Origin: Acidobacteriota bacterium | GTDB taxonomy: Bacteria; Actinomycetota; Thermoleophilia; Gaiellales; Gaiellaceae | Length of the DNA stretch: 46,822 nt | Reading direction: 5' to 3' | Assembly: GCA_028876365.1 (NCBI GenBank) | Contig: JAGWRZ010000026.1 | Location: 1 to 46,822, forward strand | Part shown: in pieces, positions 27,258 through 31,559 of the stretch | Numbering within the stretch: the stretch's first letter is position 1 | Layout: every line of letters starts with the position of its first letter | Notes under the pieces: model-generated | Told to the model about the DNA's origin: nothing | The model's database searches: none | What the model saw: only the letters and a program-made list of their open reading frames with translations | Made by a program: the position numbers and the translations under genes

Positions 27258-27721
27258 CAGCCGTCATTGTGCTTCAGCTGCGACTCCTTCCGCTGGGCCT
27301 CCGCCAGGCTGATCGTCCCGCCGCACACCTCGGCGTTGAGCTCGTTCTCGATCCGGTCGACCTCGGCGGCGCGTGGGTACGGCTCCGGCCAGAGGTTCCG
27401 CGGATCGGTCGGGTCGCCGCCGAGCTCGAGGGAGATGAGGTGGTCCTCCTGGTAGAGGGACGCGCTCCCGGGCAGGCCGTAGGCGTGCATCTGCGTCGCC
27501 TTCAGTGCGTTCGTGTACGCGACCGGCGGGCGTACGGTGGCGGTCCAGCCGTGGACGCAGATGGTCGAGCCGATCGTCGCCTGCGTCACGTCCGCGTTCA
27601 GGACGCCGGGGACGCGCGGCAGCACCGCGCCCGTCGAGACGTGGCCGCTTCGGGCGCGCAGGACGAGCGCCAGGACGAGCAGCGCGAGCGCCGCGACGAC
27701 GAGCACGTGCCGGACGGTCAC
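27257..27721 (-). CDS. Secreted/anchored protein with HNH-like motif (DHLISLELGGDPTDPRNLWPE)
   Basis: GTG start; VTVRHVLVVAALALLVLALVL anchor; HNH-like YQEDHLISLELGGDPTDPRNLWPEPYP; ATGA overlap with VOC gene. Confidence 0.75.
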   Translation of the reverse strand: MTVRHVLVVAALALLVLALVLRARSGHVSTGAVLPRVPGVLNADVTQATIGSTICVHGWTATVRPPVAYTNALKATQMHAYGLPGSASLYQEDHLISLELGGDPTDPRNLWPEPYPRAAEVDRIENELNAEVCGGTISLAEAQRKESQLKHNDG

Positions 27722-29151
27722 GCCGCCGACGGTACGGCCCGATCCTCCTTCGTCGCAAGACGCACGTGCAGACACGTCCCGGCGAGCGCCCAGACGACGT
27801 ATGCGACCCACGGGTCGCCGATGACGTCGGTCTGGATCGCGAGGGCGAGGATCGCGGCGAACGCCGCCGCCATCCGCAGCGCGCCCGCGCGCCAGAGCGA
27901 GACGAGGAGGGCGAGCCCCCACGCGATCCAGAGAACCGAGCCGAGGATCCCGAGCTCCGCGCCCATCTCCGTGTAGTTCGACTCGCCCGCCTTGATCGGA
28001 GTGCCGGTTCGCGACGCGGTCTGACCGACGTTGCCGAGGCCGAAGCCCTGCGGATGGTCGAGGACCGTGCGCACGCCGTCCTTCAGGGATGTCCAGTGCT
28101 CGCGCAGCGACGGCTCGTTCTCGGAGAGGGCGTTGCCGCTCGTCGGCGCCGTCGTCGCCTTCGCCACCTTCTGCTGGTAGACGAGATCGGCCTTCGTCCA
28201 GTGCCCGGTCGGCCCGATCGCCGGGAAGACGTGCGCCCACCCAACCGTAACGACGACGGCGGCGGCGGCGAGCGCGAGCGGGCGCCAGTCGCGGGCGGCG
28301 AGCGCGAGCAGGACGAGAGCGCCGGCGAGCGCGAGGAGCGACGAGCGGGAGAACGTCCACAGCAGGCCGGCGAAGGCGAGGGCGGCGAGCGCGAGCGCGA
28401 CGCGGCGGCGCGGCAGCAGCAGGAGCGCGACCACCATCAGGTAGCCGGACGCGAGCGGGCTGAGGAACGTCGACACGAGCCTCCGCAGAAAGTGCTGCTC
28501 GGAGCCCGTGTTGTAGATGAAGTTCTCCGGCAGGCCGGCGACCTTCGGGTTCTCGCCGGTGCCGTGGTAGTCGTAGCCGAGCTGCTTGTGGAAGTAGTCG
28601 ACGACGCCGTTCGTGCGCCACCAGCCGATCGGGACCGCGTAGAGGTCGACGAGGCCGAGCGTGGCGACGAACGCGGCCGTGCCGAGGATCGTCCATCCGA
28701 TCCGGCGCAGCTCGGTGCGGTCGAGAAGGAGTGAACGCCCGAGGAAGTAGGCGCCGACGGGGACGAGATCGTGCTTCGCGGCGAGCGCGACGGCATGCCG
28801 GTCTGCGACGCCGCCGAGCGCAGACTGCGGGATGAGCGCGTACACGACGACGAGCACGCCGTACGCGAGCGCGAGGGCGTCGACGACACGGGGCCGGAAC
28901 GGAAGACGCCGCTCGGCGGCGGCCTTCCGTATCACGCGCGCGAGCGCGACCGCGAGGAGGATCTCCTTCCACGCCGCGATCGCGGTGAGCGTGGACCCGC
29001 GCACGCCGGCGGCATAGAGGGACGCCATCGCGGCGTTGTGGACCGCGAGCCCGACGACGAACGCATAGAGCGCGACGACGGGGCGGCGCCAGACGGATGC
29101 CGCCGCGACGGCGAGGAGCAGCGCGTAGACCACGAGCTCGAGCGCCGTCAC
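27718..29151 (-). CDS. O-antigen ligase (Wzy/WaaL)-like membrane protein
   Basis: 477 aa polytopic; TFSRSSLLALAGALVLLALAARDWRPL and DHPQGFGLGNVG ligase-type region. Confidence 0.8.
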   Translation of the reverse strand: MTALELVVYALLLAVAAASVWRRPVVALYAFVVGLAVHNAAMASLYAAGVRGSTLTAIAAWKEILLAVALARVIRKAAAERRLPFRPRVVDALALAYGVLVVVYALIPQSALGGVADRHAVALAAKHDLVPVGAYFLGRSLLLDRTELRRIGWTILGTAAFVATLGLVDLYAVPIGWWRTNGVVDYFHKQLGYDYHGTGENPKVAGLPENFIYNTGSEQHFLRRLVSTFLSPLASGYLMVVALLLLPRRRVALALAALAFAGLLWTFSRSSLLALAGALVLLALAARDWRPLALAAAAVVVTVGWAHVFPAIGPTGHWTKADLVYQQKVAKATTAPTSGNALSENEPSLREHWTSLKDGVRTVLDHPQGFGLGNVGQTASRTGTPIKAGESNYTEMGAELGILGSVLWIAWGLALLVSLWRAGALRMAAAFAAILALAIQTDVIGDPWVAYVVWALAGTCLHVRLATKEDRAVPSAA

Positions 29152-29178: not shown

Positions 29179-29277
29179 CTAGCCCGGGCCCCAGGGGAAC
29201 TCGCCCGCAACCGCGGCGAGCGCGGCCAGTAGCGCCAGGATCAAGAAGAGCTTGATCGCGAAGCTGCTCCGCAGCAT
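29179..29277 (-). CDS. 32-aa signal-peptide-like microprotein
   Basis: gagaggaggaggacATG: strong RBS; MLRSSFAIKLFLILALLAALAAVAGEFPWGPG: positive N-terminus, hydrophobic core, AVA|GEFPWGPG possible signal peptidase site. The ORF track reports only longer versions of this frame. Confidence 0.6.
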   Translation of the reverse strand: MLRSSFAIKLFLILALLAALAAVAGEFPWGPG

Positions 29278-29356
29278 GTCCTCCTCCTCTCGGTATGAGT
29301 TGGGTCTGACAAGGGACAGCGGAGAGAATGAAGCCTGGGCAAGACGGACAGGCCCA

Positions 29357-29385
29357 TTGACGACCGGCCCGGGACCGGCCAAAAT
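29357..29385 (+). promoter_or_regulatory. Promoter of the XRE-TPR gene, predicted leaderless
   Basis: TTGACG (29357-29362), 17-bp spacer, CAAAAT (29380-29385), then 6 nt to the ATG at 29392; spacer contains GACCGGCC twice. Confidence 0.55.
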
Positions 29386-29391
29386 CGGTCA

Positions 29392-30702
29392 ATGCCGCCG
29401 GAAACCCCGTCGCCTGCGGGCGAGACGATCGGGCAACGGCTCAAGCGACTGCGGCTGGAACGAGGGCTGTCCCAGCGCGAGCTCGCCGCTCCGGGGGTCT
29501 CCTACGCCTATATCTCGCGGATCGAGGCGGGCACCCGGCAGCCCTCGGTCAAGGCGCTGCGAAAGCTCGCCGGCAAGCTCGGCGTCACCGCCGATTACCT
29601 CGAGAGCGGGTCAGAGCTCGACGCCGAGAGCGCGCGGGAGCTCCGCCTCGCCGACCTCGAGCTGGCCATCCGGCTCGGGGACGCAGACGGATCCGAGCCC
29701 GCCCTGAAGCAGATTCTCGCCGATGCAGAGGCCGCGGCCGACGCGCCGTCGGCGTTCCGCGCACGCGTCGCGCTGGCGGCCGTGCGCGAGGAGCAGAATG
29801 ACCTCGCTGCCGCTATCGAGCTTCTCGAGGCTGCCGTCGGGCAGGAGTTCGTCCAGCCGACGGAACACGTCGACGTGTTCTCGCAGCTCGGACGCGCGTA
29901 TTCGGCGGTCGGCCGGACAGCGCAAGCGGTCGAGCTATTCGAGATGTGTCTCGACGCGTCCACGAACAGCCCGTCCGCGGAGGCGCGGTTTGCGCTGATG
30001 CTGAGTTATGCGCTCACCGACGCCGGTGAGGTTGCCCGCGCTGAGGACGTCGTTCGGGATGCCCTTGCGCACGTCGGAGACACGGATGATCCGTACATGC
30101 GAGTGCGCCTGTACTGGTCCATGGCGCGAGTTGCGGATGCCGAGGGACGGCCGTCGCTCGCTCTGGCGAACATTCGCAAGGCGATTGCATTGCTGGAGAT
30201 GACCGAGGACGCTCTCAATCTCGGCCGCGCGCACTCCGTCGCTGCGCGACTCCTCGTCGAGCGCGGCAAGGGACCGGAGGCCACCGAGCATCTCGATCGC
30301 GCCGAGCGACTTCTCGGCGTCTCGCCTTCGCCCACCGACATCGTCGAGCTGAAGATCCAGCGCTCGCGGATCGCCCGTCTCGATGGCGATACCGAGGGCG
30401 CGATCCTGTTCGCGCGCCAAGCGCTCGCGATCGAGTCGATGCCGGCCGACCGCGGCTATGCCTTGGCGGTTCTCGCAGACGGCCTCGCGCTCAAGGGCGA
30501 GGCGGCGGAGGCGGATGCCGCATACAGAGAGGCGGTCGAGATCCTCGAGGCGGAGGGCCGTTTCCGTCCCGCCGCGAACACCGCCCGCTCGTGGGGGAAC
30601 ATGCTCCGTGCAGGCGGTGACGAAGCGCGGGCTCTCGATGCGCTCGACCGCGCCGCCGAGCTCGGCATGCGCGCTGCGCCGCAGCACACCCGCAACGGGT
30701 GA
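29392..30702 (+). CDS. XRE-family HTH regulator with C-terminal TPR-like repeats
   Basis: ETIGQRLKRLRLERGLSQRELAAPGVSYAYISRIEAGTRQPSVKALRKLAGKLGV HTH; about 350 aa of helical TPR-like repeats (e.g. VDVFSQLGRAYSAVGRTAQAVELFEMCLD). Confidence 0.92.
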   Translation: MPPETPSPAGETIGQRLKRLRLERGLSQRELAAPGVSYAYISRIEAGTRQPSVKALRKLAGKLGVTADYLESGSELDAESARELRLADLELAIRLGDADGSEPALKQILADAEAAADAPSAFRARVALAAVREEQNDLAAAIELLEAAVGQEFVQPTEHVDVFSQLGRAYSAVGRTAQAVELFEMCLDASTNSPSAEARFALMLSYALTDAGEVARAEDVVRDALAHVGDTDDPYMRVRLYWSMARVADAEGRPSLALANIRKAIALLEMTEDALNLGRAHSVAARLLVERGKGPEATEHLDRAERLLGVSPSPTDIVELKIQRSRIARLDGDTEGAILFARQALAIESMPADRGYALAVLADGLALKGEAAEADAAYREAVEILEAEGRFRPAANTARSWGNMLRAGGDEARALDALDRAAELGMRAAPQHTRNG

Positions 30703-31559
30703 GCGTCGAGCTCGCGGTCACCCCGCGCGGCCCGTTCTCGCTCGCGCTCTCCGCGCGCCACGCGAGCGACGCGACGAGGACGTTCCGCGACGGCGTCTTC
30801 ACGCAGGCGCTGGCGGTCGGCGACGGGATCGAGCTTGCGCGCGCCCGGCAGTCGCCTTCTGGCATCGTCACGATCCGGTCCGAGTCCGAGACGGGGGCCG
30901 AGCGCCTGCGCTGGCTCCTCGCCCTCGACGACGACCACTCCGAGTTTCTCGCGCGCGTCCGCCGAGACCCAATGCTCGGACGCGCGTCCCGCGAGCTGCG
31001 CGGACTGCGGCCCATACGCGTGTCGAGCGTCGCCCAATCTCTCCTGCGCGCATTTTGCGGCCAGCTGATCGAGGCGAGGCGCGCGCGGCGCACGGAGCAG
31101 ACGATCATCCGCGCGCTCTGCCCGGCAGGGCCCGAGCGCCTGCACGCAGCACCGACGGTCTCCGATCTCGCATCGCTCGCACCGTCGCGGCTGCGGAGCC
31201 ACGGCCTGCACGCACGGCGTGCGGCCGCACTCGTCCGGCTATGCCGATCGATCGACCTCGAGCGGCTGCACGAGCATCCGACCGAGGCGATCGTGCGACG
31301 GCTCGTGCGCGAGCGCGGCCTCGGACCGTGGTCGGTCGGGGTCGTCTGCCTCGAAGGGCTCGGGCGCTGGGATCACGGGCTCGTCGGCGACCTCGGCCTC
31401 GTCAAGCTCCTCCGCACCCTGCGCGGGCGCGAGGTCGAAGGGTGGGAGACGGCCGAGCTGCTCGAGCCCTATGGCGAGTTCTCCGGTATCGCAAGCGTGT
31501 ATCTGCTCGCCGGGCTCGGCCGCGGGCTGCTCCCGCTCGACGCCGCCGCCGCGGCGTAG
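30699..31559 (+). CDS. HhH-GPD DNA glycosylase (AlkA/3-methyladenine glycosylase-like)
   Basis: SVAQSLLRAFCGQLIEARRARRTEQTIIRAL ... LVRERGLGPWSVGVVCLEGLGRWDHGLVGDLGLVKLL: HhH and GPD Asp region; GTG start overlapping the XRE stop. Confidence 0.8.
   Translation: MSVELAVTPRGPFSLALSARHASDATRTFRDGVFTQALAVGDGIELARARQSPSGIVTIRSESETGAERLRWLLALDDDHSEFLARVRRDPMLGRASRELRGLRPIRVSSVAQSLLRAFCGQLIEARRARRTEQTIIRALCPAGPERLHAAPTVSDLASLAPSRLRSHGLHARRAAALVRLCRSIDLERLHEHPTEAIVRRLVRERGLGPWSVGVVCLEGLGRWDHGLVGDLGLVKLLRTLRGREVEGWETAELLEPYGEFSGIASVYLLAGLGRGLLPLDAAAAA

Follow-up and report, generated by a model that had tools for sequence, protein, structure and literature searches.

In the RRNPP systems of Firmicutes, such as PlcR-PapR, Rgg-SHP, and RopB-SIP, a returned peptide binds the TPR groove of the regulator and alters its DNA binding. 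The SHPs of streptococci have a short basic N-terminus, a hydrophobic core, and the mature peptide at the extreme C-terminus, and are often encoded divergently from the regulator; in Rgg-SHP systems, export is of the PptAB type and cleavage of the Eep type. RopB of Streptococcus pyogenes is an HTH-TPR receptor whose ligand SIP, a secreted peptide of eight residues, is made leaderless (PMC6565748). Two surveys of RRNPP systems concern Firmicutes and viruses (PMC10075063, PMC9765709). One of them, the large RRNPP_detector survey, was restricted to these groups and states that Actinomycetota typically signal with small molecules that enzymes make (PMC10075063); a 2026 review also places RRNPP in Firmicutes (PMC13220807). 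No RRNPP system of Actinomycetota was found in the literature searched, which lay largely outside subscription papers and preprints.

The window analysed here, the whole stretch of 46,822 nucleotides from a bacterium of the order Gaiellales (Actinomycetota), carries a gene for a short peptide divergent from a gene for an HTH-TPR regulator (Table 1). These two genes probably constitute a ligand-receptor pair, that is, an RRNPP-like cytoplasmic peptide receptor and its adjacent ligand gene. The small ORF, its Shine-Dalgarno sequence, its coordinates, and the 114-bp divergent spacing were all as described in an earlier note on this DNA.

Table 1. Coordinates of the genes and candidate control elements at the locus
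Feature	Position	Strand	Basis
Wzy_C (O-antigen-ligase-like) gene	27718..29151	-	Pfam Wzy_C, E 2.8e-11; 27 bp behind the peptide stop
Peptide precursor gene, 32 aa, MLRSSFAIKLFLILALLAALAAVAGEFPWGPG	29179..29277	-	translation of an ATG-started ORF, read from 29277 down to 29179; conserved beside homologous regulators, Trp tail
Shine-Dalgarno region of the peptide gene, gagaggaggaggac	29278..29291	-	sequence; Shine-Dalgarno at most homologous ORFs
Divergent intergenic region, 114 bp, proposed autoregulation site	29278..29391		sequence
Weak candidate promoter of the peptide gene, TTGCCC-17-CTGTCC	29314..29342	-	by-eye alignment with TTGACA-17-TTGCGT of relatives
Sigma-70-like promoter of the regulator, TTGACG-17-CAAAAT	29357..29385	+	consensus scan
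HTH_3 (XRE type) and TPR regulator, 436 aa, proposed cytoplasmic peptide receptor and transcription factor	29392..30702	+	Pfam, AlphaFold, PlcR matches
DNA-3-methyladenine-glycosylase-like gene	30699..31559	+	HhH-GPD and glycosylase model matches, both below cut-off

The gene pair and its resemblance to described systems

The Pfam search of the regulator detected an HTH_3 domain at residues 17-70 (E 1e-14) and several TPR matches over approximately residues 100-420, and the AlphaFold model was an all-helical superhelix with a mean pLDDT of 93.6 and a pTM of 0.80. The regulator family profile matched PlcR over both the HTH and the TPR region with an E value of 4.6e-16, as one match among many generic TPR proteins. 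A Foldseek search returned the PlcR:PapR7:DNA complex (E 1e-6), with pLS20 Rap and RapF also within the top 50, again amid generic TPR proteins. Among the Pfam and NCBIfam models, none specific to RRNPP proteins matched the regulator, and the Rgg-type C-terminal domain model was absent from its matches.

Of the characters that mark RRNPP(A) systems, a TPR domain with an N-terminal XRE HTH and an adjacent small propeptide gene were found here, the latter at most related loci as described below. Formal membership is not claimed, and the likeness is one of anatomy. PlcR-PapR of the Bacillus cereus group shares with the window's pair an XRE-HTH and TPR regulator, an adjacent precursor gene, and a ligand formed by the last few residues, but it belongs to another phylum and is distantly related in sequence; the window's peptide gene is divergent, its putative ligand carries Trp-Gly-Pro, and its receptor, at 436 aa, exceeds PlcR (293 in 2qfc) by about 100 residues. 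The precursor has the layout of an SHP and is divergent from the regulator gene as in Rgg-SHP, although the regulator matched no Rgg-specific model. Bare ORFs of 6-9 codons in several Gaiellales clades resemble the RopB-SIP system; the differences are that the precursor in the window carries a leader and that a single receptor family here is served by leaderless, leader, and multi-copy forms. Likeness to the Rap-Phr systems of Bacillus was seen in the Rap structures among the fold matches and in a second receptor family with the peptide gene directly downstream; the window's receptor differs in having its own HTH and in showing no Rap-specific sequence match.

The proposed ligand is the C-terminal tail of the precursor, approximately EFPWGPG. 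The earlier note had suggested that an octapeptide, GEFPWGPG, is released at a signal-peptidase-like site between AVA and G and may be the ligand of the adjacent regulator. The conservation of the tail beside the regulator supported the part of this suggestion concerning the ligand, while the cleavage yielding GEFPWGPG was not borne out, as the nearest relative (L033) has FAGELPWGPA in this region and others have NGSLPWGP or GGGLFWGP. A fixed signal-peptidase site was thus rejected.

The consensus scan found one promoter for the regulator, compared with a mean of 0.0 in shuffled sequences. As this predicted promoter is located very near the ATG, the regulator mRNA would be nearly leaderless if it is used. 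The candidate promoter of the peptide gene was not recovered by the consensus promoter scan. Inverted repeats of the form GTCAA...TTGACA, and the palindrome TGACAACaGTTGTCA at one related locus (L034), were considered as operators; no operator is claimed because these elements also serve as back-to-back -35 boxes.

Conservation of the pair and forms of the precursor

Relatives of the regulator came from related genomes, from the order and the class, and from the GTDB contig collection. A profile built from 52 regulators placed 119 non-identical loci. The receptor tree contained 91 receptors of the window's type, two of which had no upstream DNA, leaving 89 loci with readable flanks. A peptide ORF adjoined the regulator in 77 of them, and no peptide was recognised in the other 12. 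Leader ORFs with a PW, WP, or WGP tail were present in 38 of the 89 flanking 300-bp stretches, as compared with 0 of 5,728 stretches elsewhere in the same loci and 0 of 4,450 shuffles; with any tail allowed, the values were 44 of 89 and 0.1%, respectively. The presence of homologous ORFs in the corresponding position next to related regulators, together with the empty controls, indicated that the small ORF is not a product of chance. The earlier note would have taken a lack of conservation of the small ORF beside homologous regulators as a refutation, and the pairing withstood this test. Tryptophan was found among the last seven residues of 74 of the 77 peptides, a count in which Trp had been one search criterion for weaker matches; the unbiased figure, for leader-type ORFs found without requiring Trp, was 41 of 44.

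In the usual layout, the small ORF is preceded by a Shine-Dalgarno sequence and lies about 65-150 bp from the regulator on the opposite strand, in some loci further away. In one clade (L031, L032, L143, L187, and L191), the orientation is flipped with adjacency kept, the ORF lying upstream on the same strand as the regulator. Leader-type peptides without a tail Trp were seen at two loci (SADLIDPH in L071 and CAELTVGP in L104), where the inner groove residues were mostly kept. In the class sample, receptors of the window's type were detected at high scores only within the same order. Phage origin was considered and rejected, as viral contigs gave only two short HTH-level matches.

Three forms of precursor were found beside this one receptor family: a leader followed by the tail, a bare ORF of 6-9 codons, and a multi-copy precursor. 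A basic and hydrophobic leader was present in 58 of the 77 peptide forms. Bare ORFs with a good Shine-Dalgarno sequence occupied the same place in some clades (MHPWGS, MAPWGC, MWPWGE, MYPWGC, MAPWGS, and MLPWGS), and further bare ORFs occurred in others (MRDKWPWW, MREKWPIW, MRSKLPWW, MLRSRLGWF, and MYGGRIWP). The multi-copy precursors carried TRSGVWPWGS twice in one ORF (L059) or GSAGWGP four times, the copies being separated by short spacers and a hydrophobic leader being absent (L120). Neither the leaderless nor the multi-copy forms had an evident export signal. Scans requiring a hydrophobic core or a minimum length miss the leaderless and long precursors, which came to light when the translations were read. 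On the receptor tree, a quick tree with long-branch warnings, about five changes are needed to account for the leaderless state, and the two multi-copy forms stand apart from each other. Several loci carried two or three peptide genes in tandem, each with its own Shine-Dalgarno sequence. The leaderless and multi-copy precursors single out the tail as the putative functional unit.

Codon comparison of ten groups of close copies or orthologues showed 32 synonymous and 5 nonsynonymous differences in the tail (dN/dS of about 0.04), compared with 120 and 112, respectively, in the leader (dN/dS of 0.33), these figures being descriptive as the pairs overlap. The difference points to strong purifying selection on the tail rather than on the leader. 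Tail distance was correlated with receptor distance (Mantel r 0.52, reached in 0 of 2000 permutations), a correlation that is consistent with co-evolution and is also expected under joint inheritance, as co-inheritance alone would give the same result.

On the receptor side, the earlier note had made a conserved peptide groove in the TPR domain a further test of the pairing, which it withstood. Conserved polar or aromatic residues were concentrated on the inner (A) TPR helices, at 7.5% compared with 0.8% on the outer helices, and included R199, F200, D210, R237, R239, Y241, W242, and R246. The positions of R199, R237, R239, W242, and R246 on the inner helices fit a putative peptide groove. All 77 receptors that have a peptide keep W242; of the 14 without one, 4 have another residue there, three of the four being a single clade. 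In that clade of related regulators (L018, L024, and L025), which has no recognised peptide gene, the otherwise invariant W242 is replaced by Tyr; these regulators possibly have other ligands or are orphan receptors.

Proposed signalling and alternative explanations

The sequences thus show two genes kept adjacent, a tail under selection, alternative precursors that share this tail, and conservation of the inner TPR surface, and the pair is more strongly supported than the earlier note had claimed. Export, cleavage, import, binding, and the genes controlled are steps that we infer. The hydrophobic leader probably carries the peptide to or through the membrane, where it would be cut, and re-import by oligopeptide uptake is probable for the leader forms. 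The window's genome encodes six SBP_bac_5 oligopeptide-binding proteins, which make import possible, and an M50 protease, both families being widespread and unspecific. The returned tail peptide would bind the TPR groove of the cytoplasmic HTH-TPR transcription factor, and this would alter how the receptor binds DNA, at least within the divergent promoter region that the two genes share, giving autoregulation.

The peptide might instead act within the cell that makes it, as a self-sensing or translation-coupled effector of the TPR regulator rather than as a secreted cell-cell signal. The bare ORFs and the four-copy precursor, with no evident export signal, agree with such a ligand. We consider it unlikely, as most of the peptide forms carry the basic and hydrophobic leader, oligopeptide-binding proteins are present in the genome, and even the leaderless SIP of S. 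pyogenes is secreted and re-imported (PMC6565748).

The surroundings of the pair bear on a further explanation, in which the small ORF acts in cis as a leader peptide whose PWGP-stop stalling controls Wzy_C, with no free ligand. The common layout was VOC - (Wzy_C) - peptide / receptor - glycosylase - proC. In the window's clade, the peptide and Wzy_C genes are co-directional, with the 27-bp gap and no hairpin between them, and in this clade only, Wzy_C is possibly cotranscribed with the peptide gene. The conserved Trp and Pro near the stop, and the 6-codon ORFs as possible leaders, would also suit stalling. With an attenuator, one and the same regulated gene would be expected immediately behind the ORF, on a shared transcript, whereas the ORFs were followed by Wzy_C, VOC, or unrelated genes. 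Wzy_C adjoined the pair in 22 loci and was absent in many, including some loci of the common layout (L039, L040, L047, and L048). Hairpins were predicted behind many of the peptide ORFs (mean z -2.5), the motif is internal and far from the stop in the multi-copy precursors, and the duplicated ORFs have their own Shine-Dalgarno sequences. The orientation of the ORF relative to the regulator flips, and the constant partner is the TPR regulator. These observations make control by stalling improbable. Wzy_C was also rejected as a general target of the receptor, since many loci lack it and have VOC or unrelated genes in its place, and a hairpin often intervenes; for the window's clade it is a possible target. 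That the ORF encodes a small membrane protein or hydrophobic toxin checked by the HTH regulator in a toxin-antitoxin-like manner, as a hydrophobic core and an XRE-type neighbour could suggest, is very improbable, as the same receptors are served by leaderless 6-codon and multi-copy forms without a hydrophobic core, the tail and not the hydrophobic part is under selection, and no Pfam or NCBIfam model matched the ORF.

In favour of the ligand-receptor reading, none of these neighbours was present in the flanking DNA examined of the paralogous pairs (L046, L054, L059, L062, L066, L067, L068, and L070), and what persists across the differing neighbourhoods is the peptide-receptor pair. The start of the glycosylase-like gene overlaps the regulator stop and the gene is kept directly downstream in most loci; it is therefore likely cotranscribed with the regulator, so that a DNA-repair gene may share the regulator transcript.

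Additional receptor types in the same genome

A second family of HTH-TPR receptors was represented in the window's genome (L002/L193, G000:C8:22136-23458) by a protein 27% identical to the window's receptor, with a leader-type ORF ending in GMSDGGYW approximately 12-22 bp downstream. In this family (L002/L193 and L148-L165), the peptide ORF lies directly downstream of the receptor gene at a distance of about 12-28 bp, and the tail mostly contains D/N-G (x-DG-x). A strict scan for a downstream leader ORF was passed by 18 of 19 loci, and all 19 had a small ORF there. One precursor (L181, SMFDGGSAFDGGSMFDGG) carries the motif three times, as FDGG repeats behind a normal-looking signal peptide. 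The groove residues of the second family differ from those of the first. The class and phylum samples gave weak matches of the second family in one other family of the class, with no recognised peptide.

A broader reading is that Gaiellales possess several parallel TPR receptor families with encoded short ligands (the WGP type, the DG type, and a TPR-only protein encoded next to a response regulator), apart from or long split from the RRNPP systems of Firmicutes, with the ligand gene repeatedly switching between leader, bare 6-9-codon, and multi-copy forms; we regard the arguments for and against it as evenly balanced. If it is true, the bare ORFs would rank with the smallest known signal genes and would escape ordinary gene calling, the 6-codon genes illustrating the signal genes that annotation misses. 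Conservation of such a pair in a soil order that is abundant and mostly uncultured would widen the range of RRNPP-type signalling, and the pair provides exact peptides for synthesis. The switches between leader, leaderless, and multi-copy forms within one receptor family constitute a natural experiment on the evolution of peptide signals and their exit from the cell.

A TPR-only homologue was also seen in the window's genome (L200, G000:C192, 1390-3422, minus strand), flanked on one side by a response regulator carrying a LuxR-type HTH and on the other by a small leader ORF, MHRYALPALTLVMVLAHWKLGSPLGFSSGN. The layout of this neighbourhood is like that of Rap-ComA-Phr.
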